A stretch of 64,000 bases of DNA from Mesorhizobium sp. PAMC28654 (GTDB lineage Bacteria; Pseudomonadota; Alphaproteobacteria; Rhizobiales; Rhizobiaceae). Location of the stretch: NCBI RefSeq assembly GCF_020616515.1, contig NZ_CP085135.1, positions 5,131,001 to 5,195,000 on the forward strand, in the 5' to 3' direction. The translations under genes and the position numbers were made by a program. This document shows, one piece after another, positions 23,619 to 31,480 of the stretch; position 1 is the stretch's first letter, and every line of letters starts with the position of its first letter. The notes under the pieces were generated by a model. That model was not told where the DNA came from. It ran no database searches and saw only the letters and a program-made list of their open reading frames with translations.

Positions 23619-24785
23619 ATGACGATTTCCAAGCCGGTCTTCGACCGTTTGGGACTATTGCTATGGATCGTGGCGTTTCTCGTCACGGTCACGCTGGCGC
23701 AAATGTCGCTCGATCATCGTTCGGTGGTGTTCGTCTACAGGAATGGCTCCGAAGCCTTTGTGGCCCAGCAGCCGCTCTATCATGTCCATCTCGCGATGGG
23801 CTACCTTTACGCGCCTGCCTTCGCCGCGCTCTATTCGCCGCTTCTGATGCTTGGGCACCATTTCGGCGACCTGGTTTGGCGCACGATCTGCTTTGGCGTG
23901 ATAACCCTTGCCGTCGTTCGGCAGGTCCGAAAGCTGGGCGGCCATGACCTGACCTGGCTGCTTTCCTTCGGCCTTGTCATGTCACTGCCCATGGCGCTCG
24001 GCGCGATCCGCAATGGCCAGGCCACGATACTGCTGACTGGCGCCTGCTGGCTTCTCACCTTGTCGGCGCTCGAGGGCCGTCGCGCGGAGACTTTTCTGTG
24101 GACGTCGGTTGCAATCATTGCCAAGCCGACGGCTATCGTCATGGTGCTGCTGGTGGCGGCACTGCGCCCCCGGCTGATACCGGTGATCGTGCTGGCGCTG
24201 CTGGTGGTGCTCATCATACCCTATGCCTTTGCGCCCGTTGGCTATGTCAACGACCAGTATCACGACTTCTTCCAGATGCTGACGGCGATGGCTGTCGACA
24301 GGACCGGCCCGTTTGAACCCGCCGACTTCACGTCTGTCTTCGCGTCGTTCGGGTATCCCCTCCCTGAACGTGAGGCCACGATCGTGCGCGTCATCGCCGC
24401 GCTGATGGCCCTCTCGGCCGTTCTCTGGTACGACCGAAGGATGGAGCGAGGAACGGCCGTGCTCGCCATATTCGTTGTGGGCGCATTTTACATGTGTGTG
24501 TTCAATCCCCGCGTCGAGCCCAATACCTACGCCATGATCGCGATTCCCAGTGGCGTCGCCATTGCCTTGCTATGGCGCCAGGAGCAGGGCGGCGCCCTGC
24601 GCCTGGTGCTGATGGCATTGCTCGTCCTGAGCGGGATGACCGGCATATTCCGTCCCATTCATGAGTTCCTCAGTCCGTGGCTCAGGCCGATCGTCGTGTC
24701 GTTCATATCTTGCACTTTGATCTGGTGGTTCTGGGCCAGGGCGCGGGTGAAGGTCCACGATGCCGGATCCGTGGCACATGGCTGA
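23619..24785 (+). CDS. GT87-type (DUF2029) membrane glycosyltransferase
   Basis: A 388-residue polytopic membrane protein with about ten hydrophobic segments, of the GT87/DUF2029 family. Members transfer sugars from polyprenyl-phosphate-sugar donors outside the cytoplasmic membrane. After the first helix, an extracytoplasmic loop holds the acidic and aromatic residues YRNGSEAFVAQQPLYH. MALGAIRNGQATILL is the family's conserved region. The chosen ATG follows a GGATCTGGGG stretch; an in-frame ATG at 23529 would add 30 non-membrane residues. It overlaps the next gene by 26 bp. In this context it probably delivers the sugar made by the GT2 and modified by the deacetylase. Confidence 0.8.
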   Translation: MTISKPVFDRLGLLLWIVAFLVTVTLAQMSLDHRSVVFVYRNGSEAFVAQQPLYHVHLAMGYLYAPAFAALYSPLLMLGHHFGDLVWRTICFGVITLAVVRQVRKLGGHDLTWLLSFGLVMSLPMALGAIRNGQATILLTGACWLLTLSALEGRRAETFLWTSVAIIAKPTAIVMVLLVAALRPRLIPVIVLALLVVLIIPYAFAPVGYVNDQYHDFFQMLTAMAVDRTGPFEPADFTSVFASFGYPLPEREATIVRVIAALMALSAVLWYDRRMERGTAVLAIFVVGAFYMCVFNPRVEPNTYAMIAIPSGVAIALLWRQEQGGALRLVLMALLVLSGMTGIFRPIHEFLSPWLRPIVVSFISCTLIWWFWARARVKVHDAGSVAHG

Positions 24786-25761
24786 ACTGAGGCCTACTCT
24801 CGATATCATCGCGCCGTTTCTCAACGAGGCTCAGTCGGCTGCGGCCTTTGTAGCCCTGCTCGATCAGCTGGAGGCCGTGGTGTCGCAGCGGTTCGGCATG
24901 GCCATGCACAAGATCCTGGTCGACGACGGCAGCCAGGATGATGGTGTCGAGCGATTTTCGCGGACGCTTTCCGGATCCTGGGAGATCGTGCGTCTCAGCC
25001 GCAATTTCGGCAAGGAGGTCGCCGTTCTTGCCGGTCTCGACCGTTCGCGCGGCGACATGGTGCTGATCATGGATGCTGATCTCCAGCATTCGATGGAGAT
25101 CAGCCTCACGATGATTTCGGAACTGGTCGAGGATCCGGAACTCGACGTGGTCTATGCGCAGAACGACAGGCGCGAGGCCAGCTGGCGGCGCAGCCAGTTG
25201 GCACGGCTCTTCTACAGCCTGATCAACAGCAGCCAACGCTTCGACATTCCTGAGAACGCCGGCGACTTTCGCGTCATGCGTGGCGCCGTCGCGCGCGCGG
25301 TCGCCAGCCTGCGCGACAAGAGGCGCTTCAACAAGGGCCTCTTTGCCTGGGCCGGCTTCCGCCAGAAAGCGGTGCCCTATTCACCGGAGGATCGTGCCAG
25401 CGGTACGTCGAAATGGAGCCGGCTCAACCTGCTCGCTTTTTCATTGGAAGGCTTCACTTCCTTTTCCGTCATTCCGCTGCGCCTCATCAGCCTCTGCGGG
25501 CTCATCGCCGCGTTGGCCGGCGCGCTGTATGGCGCCAAGGTATTCTTCGAGGTCGTGTTCTACGGCATCGCCGTGCCCGGCTATCCCAGCCTTCTGGTGG
25601 CGGTGGTGTTTCTCGGCGGCTTCAACCTCGCCCTTCTTGGTCTGATCGGCGAATATGTCTGGGTGACGCTGAGCGAAAGCAAGGATCGGCCCATCTACAT
25701 CGTGCGCGACGTCGTCAGTGGCGAGTTCGGTAGAGGGAAGCCGGGCACCGCCGACAGATGA
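24760..25761 (+). CDS. GT2 polyprenyl-phosphate sugar transferase, GtrB/ArnC-like
   Basis: A 333-residue family 2 glycosyltransferase with two C-terminal membrane helices, the layout of enzymes that put a sugar from a nucleotide donor onto undecaprenyl phosphate. LDIIAPFLNEAQSAAAFVALL starts the GT-A fold, VDDGSQDDG and LIMDADLQHSMEI carry the donor-metal acidic residues, and GDFRVMRGAVARA the following core. Two helices occur at about 230-260 and 270-300. The ATG at 24760 has AAGG seven bases upstream; an alternative ATG is at 24778. It is overlapped by the preceding GT87 and shares ATGA with the deacetylase gene. The sugar is not readable; an N-acetylhexosamine would fit the neighbours. Confidence 0.88.
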   Translation: MPDPWHMAELRPTLDIIAPFLNEAQSAAAFVALLDQLEAVVSQRFGMAMHKILVDDGSQDDGVERFSRTLSGSWEIVRLSRNFGKEVAVLAGLDRSRGDMVLIMDADLQHSMEISLTMISELVEDPELDVVYAQNDRREASWRRSQLARLFYSLINSSQRFDIPENAGDFRVMRGAVARAVASLRDKRRFNKGLFAWAGFRQKAVPYSPEDRASGTSKWSRLNLLAFSLEGFTSFSVIPLRLISLCGLIAALAGALYGAKVFFEVVFYGIAVPGYPSLLVAVVFLGGFNLALLGLIGEYVWVTLSESKDRPIYIVRDVVSGEFGRGKPGTADR

Positions 25762-26579
25762 CGCGACGCCTTCGCCTGATCGCCGACGATTACGGCCTGG
25801 CGTCCGGTGTCTCCGCCGCGATCCTCGAACTGCTCGAGCTCGGGCGCCTGACCGGCACCAGCTGCATGACTGGCTTTCCTGAATGGCATGACGAGGCGGT
25901 GCGCATAAAGCCTCTTGCCGGGCGTGCCGCCATCGGGTTGCATCTGACCTTGACCGATCAGGCCGCCGTCACCGGACTATCGAGCCTGGCGCCGGAAGGC
26001 CGGCTTCCACCGCTCGTTTCGCTGGCCCTGCCGGTTCGCCGCGGCCGTATCGACGATGGTGATGTGCATGCCGAACTCGATGCCCAGCGAGGCCGCTTCG
26101 TCGAGGCGCTGGGACGCGAGCCCGATTTCATCGACGGCCACCAGCATGTGCATTTCCTGCCCGTCGTCAGGCGATGGCTGCGCAAGCGTTTCGCCAAGGA
26201 AGCAGGCATGCCGGCGCTGCGCGGGTCGCCGTCATGGCCCGGCTCTATCGCTACCGCGTTGAAAATCACCGCTGTCGGAGCTCTCGCCGCCGGCTTCGAC
26301 CGGTCGATGGAGCGCGCGGGCTTCACTGTCATGCGGCCGTTGACCGGGCTCTATGACTGGCGGCAGCCCGACGGCTTCGCTTCCGTGCTCCGGTCAGCCA
26401 TCGAGACGTTGCCGGAGAACGGGCTGTTCATGTGTCATCCCGGCCATGTCGACGAAACGCTGCGCGGGCGCGATCCGATGCAGAGCGCGCGCGAGGTCGA
26501 GTTCGCCTATCTTGCCTCCGACGATTTCGGCGCAAGCCTGGAGCGCGCCGGCGCCGTCGTCATGGGTGGCCAGGGATGA
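25758..26579 (+). CDS. YdjC/ChbG/HpnK-type carbohydrate deacetylase
   Basis: A 273-residue YdjC-family deacetylase. IADDYGLASG has the metal-binding aspartates, IGLHLTLTD a metal histidine, IDGHQHVHFLP the second histidine pair and FMCHPGHVDE the C-terminal catalytic histidine. Family members remove N-acetyl groups from sugars: ChbG from chitobiose, HpnK from an N-acetylglucosaminyl hopanoid, and NaxD from polyprenyl-phosphate-GalNAc in Francisella. Its position between a polyprenyl GT2 and GtrA makes a NaxD-like substrate the best guess. Start and end overlap both neighbours by ATGA. Confidence 0.88.
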   Translation: MTRRLRLIADDYGLASGVSAAILELLELGRLTGTSCMTGFPEWHDEAVRIKPLAGRAAIGLHLTLTDQAAVTGLSSLAPEGRLPPLVSLALPVRRGRIDDGDVHAELDAQRGRFVEALGREPDFIDGHQHVHFLPVVRRWLRKRFAKEAGMPALRGSPSWPGSIATALKITAVGALAAGFDRSMERAGFTVMRPLTGLYDWRQPDGFASVLRSAIETLPENGLFMCHPGHVDETLRGRDPMQSAREVEFAYLASDDFGASLERAGAVVMGGQG

Positions 26580-26986
26580 GCGGCGCGGACCAGCCGGGTC
26601 GTACGACCGGCGACAAGATCATCCGCTTCGCGATGGTCGGCGTCGTCAATACGGTCATCGACCTGGCCAGCTTCTCGCTGCTGCTCTGGCTGAAGGCCCC
26701 GCCTCTCGGTGCCAATCTGGGCGCCTGGATCGTAGCCGTTGCCTTCTCCTTCGTGGCGAACGGCTTCTGGTCGTTCGAACGCGATCCCGCCATTTCCCTG
26801 CACAGCGCCTTCTTGCGCTTCGTCTCGCTGGGCGCGCTCATTTCGCTCGGCGTTTCCAGCCTGTCCATCGCGTTTCTCGCCGGCATCGTTGGCGTCTGGC
26901 CGGCCAAGATCGCCGGCGTCATCCTGGGAGCGGTGCTGAATTTCCTTGCCGCGCGCTGGTCGATCGAAGGTCGCCTGCTGAAATAG
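26576..26986 (+). CDS. GtrA family membrane protein (lipid-sugar flippase type)
   Basis: A 136-residue GtrA family protein with four predicted membrane helices. It begins with GDKIIRFAMVGVVNTVIDLASFSLLLW, typical of the family, and ends near FLAARWSIEGRLLK. GtrA proteins are thought to flip polyprenyl-phosphate sugars across the membrane. The ATG overlaps the deacetylase stop, completing a coupled four-gene set of transferase, synthase, deacetylase and flippase. The frame is open upstream inside the deacetylase gene, but the family start is at 26576. Another role, such as ion or cell-wall linked transport, is possible. Confidence 0.85.
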   Translation: MSGADQPGRTTGDKIIRFAMVGVVNTVIDLASFSLLLWLKAPPLGANLGAWIVAVAFSFVANGFWSFERDPAISLHSAFLRFVSLGALISLGVSSLSIAFLAGIVGVWPAKIAGVILGAVLNFLAARWSIEGRLLK

Positions 26987-27015: not shown

Positions 27016-30000
27016 TTACCGCGCCGGATCCACATCAACGTAGGCGGCTTCCTCGAGTTCGCGCTTCAGGCGTGCGTCCTCCTCGGCCTTCGGCGTGACG
27101 AAGCGGCCAAGCAGCAGATAGGCGACCGGCGTCAGGAACAGCGTCGAGATGGTGGCCAGTCCCAGCCCGCCGACGATCACCCAGCCGAGCGCGACGCGCG
27201 CCTCGGCGCCGGCGCCTGCGGCCAGAACCAGCGGCACGCCGCCGAGCACCGTGCAGATCATCGTCATCATCACCGGCCGCAGGCGGATGATCGAGGCTTG
27301 TTCGATGGCTTCGCGCACGCCAAGGCCTCTGTCGCGCAGCTGGTTGGCGAATTCGACGATGAGTATGCCGTTCTTGGCCATGACGCCAACCAGAAGCACC
27401 AGGCCTATCTGGCTATAGGCGTTGAGGCTGGTGCCCGAGAGCAGCAGCGCGAAGATGGCGCAGGCAAGCCCCAGCGGCACCGTCGCCATGATGATGACGG
27501 CACTGATGAAGCTCTCGAACTGGGCGGCAAGCACAAGCAGGATGATGACCAGCGCGAACCCGAAGATGGTCACCATGGCACTGTTGCTCTCGCCCAGGGT
27601 CGCTGCCTCGGCCAGCGGCAGCAATCGGCTGCCTGGCGGCAGCAGCGGCGCGGCGATCTCCTGGGCGCGCGTCAGCGCCGCACCGAGGCCGAAATCACCG
27701 CTGAGGTTGGAGGTGACGGCCACCGACGGCTGCTGCTGTTCGCGGGTCAGCGACGGCGGCACGGCGCGCTCGGTCAGGGTGGCGATGGTCGACATCGGCA
27801 CGAAGCGGCCGTCCGACGTCTTCAGGAAGATGTTTTCCAGATCGGTCGGATCGTTGATCGGGTTGGTGGTCGAAACCACCTTCACGCCGTAGCTGCGGTC
27901 GGCGATGTAGACGTCGACGACATCGTTGCCGTCGAGCATGGCCTGCATGGTGTTGGCGAGCCCGGTGATGTCGATGCCGAGATCCGAGGCGCGCTCGCGA
28001 TCGATGGCAACGGCAAGCTGCGGCTGCGTCGGGTCGACGCTCAGGCGCGGCGACTGGAATCGCGGATCCTTCTGCATCTCTGCGATGATCTTCACCGCCG
28101 CGTCGCCGAGCGCCTTGCGGTCGTTGCCGACCAGCGCGAATTGTAGGCCGTTGCCGGCGCCGCGGATGCCAAGGCTGTTGGGTTGTACCGGGAAGACGCG
28201 CAAGCTCGGCACCTGCGCGGTCAACTGGCTGATCTCGGCCATGATCTCCTGCTGGCCGCGGCCGCGCTCATTCCAGGGCGCCAGCGTCATCACCATGAAG
28301 CCGGTGTTGTAGGAGCCGTTCTGGCCGGCGCTCTCGAAGGTGGAGACGATCTCGCCGGAATCGCGCAGCGGCTGGATCAGTTTCTCGATCTTCTGCATCT
28401 GTTGCGTCGTGTAGTCGAGGCTCACGCCTTGCGGCGCGTTGATGCGCAGGAGCACGGCCGCGCGGTCCTCGGTCGGCGTCAGTTCCTGGCGGATGGTGCC
28501 GAACAGGGTGAAGGCGGTGCCGGCAAACAGCACGGCGACCAGGACCACGATCCATGGCGCGCCCAGGCAGAGGCGCAGGCTGCGGCTGTAAAAGGCATTC
28601 AGCGCCCCGCCGATGCGCGAACCGATGCCATTGCCGCTTTCAGGATGGAGCGATGCGGTTGTCAGCATGCGCGAGGCGAGCATCGGGCAAAGCGTCAGCG
28701 CGACCACGCCGGACAGAAGCACCGACATGGCGAGCACGAAGCCGAATTCGCGGAACAGGCCACCGGTCTGGCCTGGCAGGAACGAGATCGGCACGAAGAC
28801 GGCAACCAATGTCAGCGTTGTGGCGATGACGGCGAAGAACACTTCCTGCGTGCCGAGCACGGCGGCCGCGCGGGGACCCATGCCCTGGTTGCGGCGCCGC
28901 ACGATGTTTTCCAGCACGACGATGGCGTCATCGACGACAAGCCCGGTGGCGAGCACAAGGGCGAGCAGCGTCAGGATGTTGATCGAGAAGCCGGCAAGAT
29001 AGATCGCGGCGATGGTGCCGATCATGGCGACTGGCATCGACAATCCCGGAATGAGCGTCGCGCGCCAGTCGAGAAGAAAGAGATAGATGACGATCAGCAC
29101 GATGGAGACGGAGAGTGCCAGCGCGATCTCGACCTCATGCACCGCGCCGTTGACGAAGACCGCGTCGTCGCTGGTGACCTTGATCGACATGCCCTCCGGC
29201 AGGTTAGCCTGCAGCTTGGCGACGGCGGCCTGGACACCGGTCGAGATGTCCAGCGTGTTCGATTCCGCCTGGCGGATGATGCCGATGCCGATGCCGGTCT
29301 TGCCGTCCGAACGCAGCGTGGTCTGGCCTATATCGGGGCCGAGCGTGACGGTTGCGACATCGCGGATGCGCGTCGTGCCGCCGATGATGATGTTCTCGAA
29401 CTCCGCCGGCGTGGTGACGTCTGCCGTCGTGCGCACGATGAGGTCCTGGTTGGTCGTGGTGATCGAGCCGGCCGGGGCATCGAACGCAACCGAGGCAAGG
29501 GCCGCTCGCAGGTCGGCGACGGTGAAGCCAAGGCTCGCCAGCTTGTTCTGGTCGACGTCGATGCGGAAGATCTTGTCGCGGTCGCCATAGACCTGGACGT
29601 CGGCGACGCCGGGCACTGCGGCCAGCTCATCCTCGATCTGGTCCTGGACGATGACGGTCATGTCCTGGATCGACATGTTGTCCGACGTCACAGCCAGCCG
29701 CATCACCGGATCGGAGTTGGCGTCGGCCTTGACGATGCGCGGTGGATCGGCCGTCTCGGGAATCTGGTTGGCAATGCGGCCGACCGCGTCGCGCACGTCG
29801 GAGGCGGCGACGTTGAGATCGACGCCGTCGTTGAACTCGATGGTGACGCGGCTCGAGCCAAAGGACGAAGATGACGAGATCGACTTGACGCCGGAGACGC
29901 GAGCGACGGCGCCTTCTATCGTCTTGGTGAGTTCGCGGTCGACGGTTTCGGCCGCGGCACCGGTGAAGGTGGTCGAAACGGTGACGACGGAGCGGTCAAC

Positions 30001-30147
30001 ATCCGGCAGTTCGCGGACCTCTACGCCATAGAAGGCGGCGAGCCCGGCGACGGCGATCAGGACATTCAGCACAAGGGCCATCACTGGCCTGCGGATGAAC
30101 AGGGCCGTGAAGCTGCTGTCGCCGCTGGCGTTGACGCTCCCGCTCAT
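27016..30147 (-). CDS. RND efflux pump inner-membrane transporter, HAE1 family
   Basis: A 1043-residue resistance-nodulation-division transporter, the proton-driven inner-membrane part of a tripartite efflux pump. It has the AcrB-like N-terminal motif SFTALFIRRPVMALVLNVLI, the TM4 proton-relay Asp pair in LATGLVVDDAIVVLENIVRRR, and the duplicated porter domains with LPDVDRSVVTVSTTF. Length and architecture match HAE1 pumps. The adaptor gene follows upstream with a four-base overlap; no outer-membrane factor or regulator is nearby. Exported compounds cannot be read from sequence. Related rhizobial pumps export plant flavonoids or antibiotics. Confidence 0.93.
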   Translation of the reverse strand: MSGSVNASGDSSFTALFIRRPVMALVLNVLIAVAGLAAFYGVEVRELPDVDRSVVTVSTTFTGAAAETVDRELTKTIEGAVARVSGVKSISSSSSFGSSRVTIEFNDGVDLNVAASDVRDAVGRIANQIPETADPPRIVKADANSDPVMRLAVTSDNMSIQDMTVIVQDQIEDELAAVPGVADVQVYGDRDKIFRIDVDQNKLASLGFTVADLRAALASVAFDAPAGSITTTNQDLIVRTTADVTTPAEFENIIIGGTTRIRDVATVTLGPDIGQTTLRSDGKTGIGIGIIRQAESNTLDISTGVQAAVAKLQANLPEGMSIKVTSDDAVFVNGAVHEVEIALALSVSIVLIVIYLFLLDWRATLIPGLSMPVAMIGTIAAIYLAGFSINILTLLALVLATGLVVDDAIVVLENIVRRRNQGMGPRAAAVLGTQEVFFAVIATTLTLVAVFVPISFLPGQTGGLFREFGFVLAMSVLLSGVVALTLCPMLASRMLTTASLHPESGNGIGSRIGGALNAFYSRSLRLCLGAPWIVVLVAVLFAGTAFTLFGTIRQELTPTEDRAAVLLRINAPQGVSLDYTTQQMQKIEKLIQPLRDSGEIVSTFESAGQNGSYNTGFMVMTLAPWNERGRGQQEIMAEISQLTAQVPSLRVFPVQPNSLGIRGAGNGLQFALVGNDRKALGDAAVKIIAEMQKDPRFQSPRLSVDPTQPQLAVAIDRERASDLGIDITGLANTMQAMLDGNDVVDVYIADRSYGVKVVSTTNPINDPTDLENIFLKTSDGRFVPMSTIATLTERAVPPSLTREQQQPSVAVTSNLSGDFGLGAALTRAQEIAAPLLPPGSRLLPLAEAATLGESNSAMVTIFGFALVIILLVLAAQFESFISAVIIMATVPLGLACAIFALLLSGTSLNAYSQIGLVLLVGVMAKNGILIVEFANQLRDRGLGVREAIEQASIIRLRPVMMTMICTVLGGVPLVLAAGAGAEARVALGWVIVGGLGLATISTLFLTPVAYLLLGRFVTPKAEEDARLKRELEEAAYVDVDPAR

Positions 30148-31301
30148 GAGCCTTCAGCGCCGTTGGCGGGCTGTACTTGCCCGGCGATGCGCACATCGCC
30201 GCCTTCAGTGACACTCTGGGTGCCCTCGGTAATCACCAGGTCACCGCCGGTGATCGGTGCGTCGATCAACACCGTTTCAGTGTTGCGCTGGATGATACGC
30301 ACGGCAACCCGCTTGGCCTTGCCGTTCTCGATCGTCCAGACATAGGCGCCGTCGGACCCCCAGAGTATGGCGAGCGGGCTGACAGCGGGGAAGTTTTGAC
30401 CGGGGAATTTCATGGCGATGCTGAACGACATGCCGGCCCGCAGGGAATCGGCCGGATTGGCGATGGTCGCCTTGACCAGAAGCGTGCGGCTGTTCTCGTC
30501 GATGTGGTTGTCGATGGCCGAAACCGTGCCGTTGTAAGCGTTGCCGGGATTGGCGATCGGCGTCGCCGTCAGTTGCGCGCCAACCGTTACAGCAGCGGCA
30601 AAACGCTCCGGCACCAGGAAATCGACCAATATGCTGGAACGGTCGTCGAGCGTCGCGATCGCCGACTGGCTGGTGACATAGTTGCCGGCCGAGATCGGCA
30701 GGATACCGACAGTGCCGGCGATCGGCGCCAGGATCGAACGGCGTTCCAGGGCCAGTTCGGCGTCGCGAAGCGCCAGCCTGGCGTTCGACAGGGTCACCTC
30801 AGCGTCGGCCACCGCAACCGGTGTCGCGGCGTTGGATGCGCGCAGCGACTTCACCCGGGTCAGCTTCTCCTGCGCGTCCTGCAAGGCAAGCTTGGCACGG
30901 TCCTGAGCGATGATCTCGGTCTCAGAGTCGAGGGTGGCGATCAACTGGCCCTTGTCGACATGCGCGCCGGATTGCACGAGCACCTCGGTCAGGCGGCCCG
31001 AGCTGTAGGGGTTGACGGTGACGGAGGCATTGGCGCGGCCGGTGCCGATTGCCTGCAGGCGATCGTTGATGGTGGCCGTGGTGGCGGGCAGGACCACCAC
31101 ATTCACCTGGCGGCTGGCGCCGTTGCGGCCGCCGTTCTGGCTTGCGAGAGAGCCGGTGCTGGAAGGCGTCGTCGCCGCATATGTCCAGTCTAACCCCCAG
31201 CGCGCCAGAATATCCGGCGCACCGGGAAAGAACCGAAGCCAGGCAGTGGCTGCCGCAACGATCACCACAAGTGCTAAAAGTAACTGCTTCCAGGTCGCCA
31301 T
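30144..31301 (-). CDS. RND efflux membrane-fusion (adaptor) protein
   Basis: A 385-residue HlyD/AcrA-family periplasmic adaptor. An N-terminal membrane segment (QLLLALVVIVAAATAWLRFF) is followed by the lipoyl-hairpin-barrel arrangement: VNPYSSGRLTEVLVQSGAHVDKGQLIATLD (split around the hairpin), a coiled coil about residues 130-170, and SAGNYVTSQSAIATLDD. It lacks a lipobox, so it is anchored by its helix. The chosen ATG at 31301 has GGAG five bases upstream; a GTG at 31334 is in frame but has poorer context. It reads first in the pump operon and overlaps the transporter gene by four bases. Confidence 0.9.
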   Translation of the reverse strand: MATWKQLLLALVVIVAAATAWLRFFPGAPDILARWGLDWTYAATTPSSTGSLASQNGGRNGASRQVNVVVLPATTATINDRLQAIGTGRANASVTVNPYSSGRLTEVLVQSGAHVDKGQLIATLDSETEIIAQDRAKLALQDAQEKLTRVKSLRASNAATPVAVADAEVTLSNARLALRDAELALERRSILAPIAGTVGILPISAGNYVTSQSAIATLDDRSSILVDFLVPERFAAAVTVGAQLTATPIANPGNAYNGTVSAIDNHIDENSRTLLVKATIANPADSLRAGMSFSIAMKFPGQNFPAVSPLAILWGSDGAYVWTIENGKAKRVAVRIIQRNTETVLIDAPITGGDLVITEGTQSVTEGGDVRIAGQVQPANGAEGS

Positions 31302-31480
31302 TGGCACTCCGGTTGACAAAATCCCTTCGTCCACCGCTTTTTAGAAATCTAGCAGACGCATCCACGCAACGCGATATGCGCGAAGCAACATCGATGCCAA
31401 ACCTATATGACAACTCTACTGAGCCAGTGCACATTAAATCTGTGTAACGTTGGGCTTTCGCCCGCGGCCGGTGACATCCG

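Follow-up and report, generated by a model that had tools for sequence, protein, structure and literature searches.

In three-component (Gtr) periplasmic glycosylation (GtrA-GtrB-Gtr(type)), a family 2 glycosyltransferase (GT2) that makes a polyprenyl-phosphate sugar is combined with a GtrA-family protein and a GT-C transferase, as described in the parts of the literature considered here (PMC8035078, PMC11127046). The mycobacterial pathway for galactosamine on arabinogalactan (PpgS, Rv3632, Rv3779) uses a polyprenyl-phosphate-N-acetylgalactosamine (GalNAc) synthase with a helper protein, followed by deacetylation and transfer of the free amino sugar; its flippase and deacetylase are described as unidentified in the sections of that paper used here (PMC9671496). 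For NaxD, a member of the YdjC superfamily, part of a review describes deacetylation of GalNAc on undecaprenyl phosphate and then transfer to lipid A (PMC11279074). Here, we analysed a cassette of four genes, encoding a GT87-type membrane transferase, a GT2, a YdjC/ChbG-type deacetylase and a GtrA-family protein, in a stretch of 64,000 nucleotides (the window) from the single-contig 6.7 Mb genome of Mesorhizobium sp. PAMC28654. This cassette is probably a three-component system of the Gtr type that has a deacetylase built in and provides a polyprenyl-phosphate hexosamine route to the cell envelope.

All four gene products exceed the Pfam gathering cut-offs, GtrA with 67.4 bits against a cut-off of 26.1. 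The gene identities of an earlier sequence-only reading of this DNA are thereby confirmed, and so is its assignment of the host to the rhizobia, the nearest named relatives being Mesorhizobium. The match of the small membrane protein to PF04138 places it in the family of the putative Gtr flippases. The GT2 is related to polyprenyl-phosphate glycosyltransferases. Its closest solved relative in the PDB is the glycosyltransferase sll0501 (5ekp, 6e-60, residues 14–319), which we take to be a GtrB, and an ArnC-type enzyme (9hwj) matches with 5e-24. NCBIfam models for PgfS (195.8 bits, cut-off 500), PpgS (27.6 bits, cut-off 370) and ArnC (far below cut-off) were rejected as identities of the GT2. 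In the YdjC protein the catalytic residues are kept, and the Asp and His catalytic and metal residues as well as the fold of YdjC/ChbG deacetylases are present. It was rejected as a ChbG chitin disaccharide deacetylase (NF002559, 90.4 bits, cut-off 227) and as an HpnK hopanoid deacetylase (TIGR03473, 57.8 bits, cut-off 232.6).

The cassette was compared in 36 genomes of the same genus. Its YdjC gene is present in 22 of them, and the GT87 subfamily in exactly the same 22. All 22 carrier loci contain the four genes in the same order, with one GtrA cut by a contig end; the GT87 is only partially included in these loci, and its full length was established by a separate search of the same genomes. 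In all 21 carriers examined, the fetched stretch includes the flank genes MDR and SIS, and site and gene order are the same in ten large carrier loci. YdjC is absent from 14 genomes. The MDR flank gene was located in eight of these and not found in the other six, and all eight located sites are empty, the flanks adjoining each other without any of the four genes. The four genes are an all-or-none unit in inheritance. The sequence-only reading had described coupling by overlaps of 26 (GT87/GT2), 4 (GT2/YdjC) and 4 bases (YdjC/GtrA), which the coordinates in the window bear out. Both 4-base overlaps are retained in all 22 operons measured (the window and 21 relatives, with G014 left out due to its short contig and with the start codons nearest to those of the window), and the GT87/GT2 overlap amounts to 26, 23 or 8 bases. 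Median ratios of nonsynonymous to synonymous substitution rates (dN/dS) over ten pairs are 0.20 for GT87, 0.12 for GT2, 0.21 for YdjC and 0.19 for GtrA, compared with 0.07–0.10 for three flank genes in the same pairs. The four cassette genes are under purifying selection. Since their dN/dS is higher than that of the flank genes, the protein sequences of the cassette change faster than their surroundings, which would fit the habit of envelope genes.

Given the Gtr-type design and the deacetylase within it, a polyprenyl-phosphate hexosamine is the probable donor. The GT2 would transfer an N-acetylhexosamine from a uridine diphosphate sugar onto polyprenyl phosphate at the inner face of the inner membrane, and YdjC would take off the acetyl group and leave a positively charged hexosamine. 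GtrA may assist the crossing of the lipid-linked sugar to the periplasm, where GT-C transferases would place it on an envelope molecule. The donor is probably shared by two transferases, the GT87 of the operon and, in most carriers, an unlinked enzyme of the PMT_2 family. What the analysis establishes are the protein families and folds, the active-site residues conserved in YdjC, the gene linkage, the all-or-none inheritance and the phyletic association of the PMT_2; every chemical step, the identity of the sugar, whether deacetylation precedes flipping, and the acceptor are what we infer. The same kind of inference supports the route via a polyprenyl-phosphate amino sugar put forward in the sequence-only reading, which had missed that GT2, GtrA and a GT-C transferase make up a known three-component system.

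A sequence search of the PDB with the GT87 gave no match and a profile search returned designed repeat proteins only. Because both were uninformative, a fold search was used, according to which the GT87 has the PimE fold and thus the GT-C fold of a Gtr transferase. In the part of the PimE study used here, the exchanges D58A and D58N abolish activity (PMC12041525). At the inferred position of this catalytic Asp, Ser or Thr is found in all 120 homologues examined (of 191 matches, all close relatives), and these 120 share no invariant acidic residue in the first periplasmic loop. In the aligned other GT87s from alphaproteobacteria the Asp is invariant (16 of 16). These 16 were taken from 29 loci (L161–L189); L173, L177 and L187 were dropped owing to low hydrophobicity, and ten further loci were left out by choice and are uncounted, most of the printed rows showing a candidate Asp and L186 being unclear. 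One of these ten, L178 (2.6e-26), is a stronger match than the retained L179. Comparison by hhalign of a 39-sequence alignment of the GT87 subfamily with the alignment of other GT87s covered residues 61–316 only, with a probability of 13.6%, and MAFFT misplaced the first loop. As the hhalign result does not cover the loop, the missing Asp was placed by means of spacing, the predicted helix 37–48 and the comparison with PimE. K169 and Q134, the presumed donor-phosphate Lys and Gln, are invariant in the 39-sequence alignment; the matching Lys is present in 16 and the matching Gln in 15 of the 16 other GT87s. Arg34 and Arg131 are also conserved in the subfamily.

Further copies of this GT87 exist. 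A second, lone copy with 89% identity (G000:C1:762581-763288 region; L134:7309-8472, minus strand) adjoins methyltransferase-like and solute-binding-protein-like genes (our labels). A copy with 79% identity is found in Mesorhizobium sp. INR15 in a record that names a plasmid, and G005 has three copies.

The genome of the window contains four PMT_2 matches. One of them, at G000:C1:6349069-6350781, is an orphan with no GT2 or GtrA among the six neighbouring genes scanned. This orphan PMT_2 is present in 20 of the 22 carriers and in none of the 14 non-carriers (E<=1e-50). A tree built from 40 PMT_2 proteins places eight orphans, 11 YdjC-linked proteins and two of 21 background proteins on one side of a branch with a support of 93 in the Shimodaira–Hasegawa-like approximate likelihood ratio test (SH-aLRT). 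The remaining 19 background proteins fall apart from this group, L234 being the next outside. Concerning the three background rows in or just outside the group, YdjC is found in G324 and in neither G059 nor G300. The tree, obtained by a quick search and rooted at the midpoint, includes 11 of 12 linked proteins (L072 omitted) and eight of 13 orphans; L215, L219 and L233 were dropped due to low hydrophobicity, L235–L242 were unused, and four rows are long-branched. The first loop of all 19 linked and orphan proteins carries an invariant Asp and Glu, followed by Lys/Arg-His-Pro. The unlinked PMT_2 is likely a fifth component of the amino-sugar system. The proposal of the sequence-only reading that GT87 replaces ArnT is not supported in this form, given an unlinked PMT_2 from the YdjC-linked clade in most carriers and a GT87 without the catalytic Asp.

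The neighbourhood of the orphan PMT_2 differs between one group of carriers (five loci) and a second one (seven loci and the genome of the window), the only common element being the divergent neighbour gene. A small membrane-protein-like gene without Pfam match (L135:5567-6400, minus strand, with homologues in L202–L213) lies beside the orphan and stays there in both groups despite their differing other flanks. A different PMT_2 of the same genome is followed by a GT2-GtrA fusion protein (L136:6792-9616, G000:C1:4038791 onward) and occurs in four of the 36 relatives; this set is possibly another three-component system.

For a wider census, named genomes were scanned with a YdjC alignment, and the best 80 of at least 572 relatives were kept with up to 6 kb on each side, which biases the census towards close relatives. 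The fetched stretch contains a GT2 in 73 of these 80 loci, GtrA in 35, a MurJ homologue in 24, the cassette-type GT87 in 22 and PMT_2 in 12. Mesorhizobium ciceri WSM1271 (L049) is among the strains in which the operon was observed. Loci with PMT_2 beside YdjC come from Mesorhizobium xinjiangense, Rhizobium, Agrobacterium, Nitratireductor and Marinobacterium. Compared with the four-gene cassette, the GT2-YdjC core has a broader distribution, and the neighbour counts show that the core is steady while the adjoining transferase varies. It is very improbable that YdjC acts on free chitooligosaccharides or, like HpnK, on a hopanoid and stands beside GT2, GtrA and GT87 only by chance, since it scores far below the ChbG and HpnK cut-offs, is accompanied by a GT2 in most loci of the census and is co-inherited with the GT87.

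The MurJ homologues lie beside the GT2, mainly in Microvirga and Methylobacterium, and none of the 24 stretches contains GtrA (L074, L075, L077–L080, L082, L084, L086–L090, L093, L094, L096, L099, L103, L105, L108, L109, L111, L115 and L119). MurJ could substitute for GtrA as flippase or could just be a housekeeping gene. Two further loci (L100:2564-6861 and L102:2564-6876) show the order GtrA, large membrane protein, GT2 and divergent YdjC. The large membrane protein of L100, the only one tested, has a weak PMT_2 match exactly at the cut-off. Perhaps this arrangement represents another transferase type in the GT2-YdjC module.

Several observations weigh against a Gtr-type hexosamine system with two transferases. 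The GT87 lacks the catalytic Asp of active GT87/GT-CA transferases and, consequently, may not be a transferase. PIG-U, for instance, is a partner in the glycosylphosphatidylinositol transamidase. A corresponding role of the GT87 as a non-catalytic lipid-binding or scaffold partner, with the orphan PMT_2 as the real transferase, would agree with the missing Asp, but we regard it as unlikely. A tentative and likewise rather unlikely proposal is a five-part system in which one deacetylated polyprenyl-phosphate hexosamine feeds both an unlinked PMT_2 of ordinary chemistry and a GT87 with the Asp-to-Ser/Thr exchange, whose conserved Arg34 and Arg131 would fit an acceptor for which a base is dispensable, for example a phosphate or carboxylate. 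As to the PMT_2, the carriers G005 and G035 have no orphan at E<=1e-50, and a much rarer control PMT_2 is also confined to carriers (4 of 22 against 0 of 14; 4 of 36 overall). In a flank-protein tree of 30 genomes, the carrier pattern needs two changes, i.e. two independent pairs. The orphan PMT_2 tracks the operon in 1.8 of these two pairs on average (control PMT_2, 0.3 of two), with a median p of 0.5 in a sign test, and only two independent transitions limit the claim of an association. In the census, GT2 is missing from seven of the 80 loci, and 46 contain neither counted GT-C type. Moreover, sll0501, the closest solved relative of the GT2, is presumably a glucose enzyme rather than an N-acetylhexosamine enzyme. 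Finally, Mesorhizobium loti lipid A contains 2,3-diamino-2,3-dideoxyglucose (GlcN3N), galacturonic acid (GalA) and phosphate and no added hexosamine in the part of the structural report used here (PMC4103559; operon status of the strain unchecked), which mildly argues against a steady decoration of lipid A.

The last point bears directly on the acceptor. Lipid A phosphate could be decorated with glucosamine or galactosamine as by Francisella NaxD or Bordetella LgmA-C, with GT87 or PMT_2 in the role of ArnT. The logic of GT2, YdjC and GT-C shared with the described Lgm and NaxD systems speaks for it, as does the 4'-phosphate reported for M. loti lipid A (PMC4103559). However, the excerpt of the same report gives no hexosamine decoration for M. 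loti nor, as cited there, for M. huakuii, and the GT2-YdjC module also occurs with MurJ neighbours. As regards an ArnT-like transferase, the operon encodes a GT87, the PMT_2-family enzyme is unlinked in 20 of 22 carriers, and the five module-linked transferases of other genomes that were scanned (L061, L067, L068, L081 and L100; orphan PMT_2 unscanned) matched no ArnT model in NCBIfam, where the presence of such a model was unchecked. Thus, we consider decoration of lipid A possible but doubtful. For the Gtr-type hexosamine route, we would guess that the sugar goes to a surface glycolipid or a part of the lipopolysaccharide, with a phosphate or other anionic group favoured for the GT87.

Coordinates of the cassette genes and of two relevant GT87 codons in the window.
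Feature	Position	Strand	Details
GT87-type GT-C membrane transferase gene	23619-24785	+	388 aa; Pfam PF09594 GT87 3.9e-11
GT2 gene, polyprenyl-phosphate glycosyltransferase type (GtrB/ArnC-like)	24760-25761	+	333 aa; PF00535 Glycos_transf_2 3.6e-20
YdjC/ChbG-type deacetylase gene	25758-26579	+	273 aa; Pfam YdjC 6.2e-48
GtrA-family small membrane protein gene, putative flippase or GT2 partner	26576-26986	+	136 aa; PF04138 1.6e-18
Ser35 codon, inferred counterpart of the catalytic Asp of other GT87s	23721..23723	+	spacing, predicted helix 37-48, PimE comparison
Lys169 codon, likely donor-phosphate lysine (K195 in PimE)	24123..24125	+	conservation; role by analogy to PimE as described in part of PMC12041525

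Upstream of the cassette lies a zinc-type dehydrogenase-like gene (MDR) and downstream, on the opposite strand, an RND-type pump, both labelled from open reading frame sequence only. The pump and its partner (27016-31334 in the window) adjoin the site in only some relatives, and their presence does not track the cassette.

The cassette provides a compact, testable case, with GT2, deacetylase, flippase candidate and transferase in a single operon. It is relevant to the mycobacterial galactosamine pathway, whose flipping and deacetylation steps are those described as unidentified in the consulted sections (PMC9671496). Positively charged surface sugars on a legume symbiont could influence symbiosis and the resistance of the bacterium to antimicrobial peptides of the plant. 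For the GT-C mechanism, it is puzzling that purifying selection maintains a GT-C family that has lost its catalytic base, and the exchange of transferases beside the GT2-YdjC core suggests how such systems switch acceptors. The sequence-only reading had known of no described system with this exact set, and our literature search, partly judged by titles and the beginnings of abstracts, likewise found no work describing YdjC, GtrA, glycosyltransferase and deacetylase together.

Like Gtr systems, the cassette has a GT2, a GtrA-family protein and a GT-C transferase. It differs from them by the YdjC inside the operon, by a GT87 without the usual Asp as transferase and by the further PMT_2 elsewhere. 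Francisella FlmF2-NaxD-FlmK and Bordetella LgmA-D, which are lipid A amino-sugar systems, likewise combine a YdjC-type deacetylase with GT2 and GT-C enzymes, and LgmD is reported as non-essential. In contrast to the Flm/Nax/Lgm systems, the operon encodes a GT87 instead of an ArnT-like enzyme, and GtrA is present. HpnI and HpnK, the hopanoid glucosamine pair, are a GT2 and a YdjC-family deacetylase; the YdjC of the cassette, however, is far below the HpnK cut-off. Unlike PimE, the GT87 has no acidic counterpart of the catalytic D58. Compared with the mycobacterial galactosamine pathway, the operon holds candidates for both the flippase and the deacetylase, and its GT2 falls well short of the PpgS cut-off. 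The parts and the logic are known, whereas the gene combination, the GT87 without a base and the unlinked PMT_2 are new.

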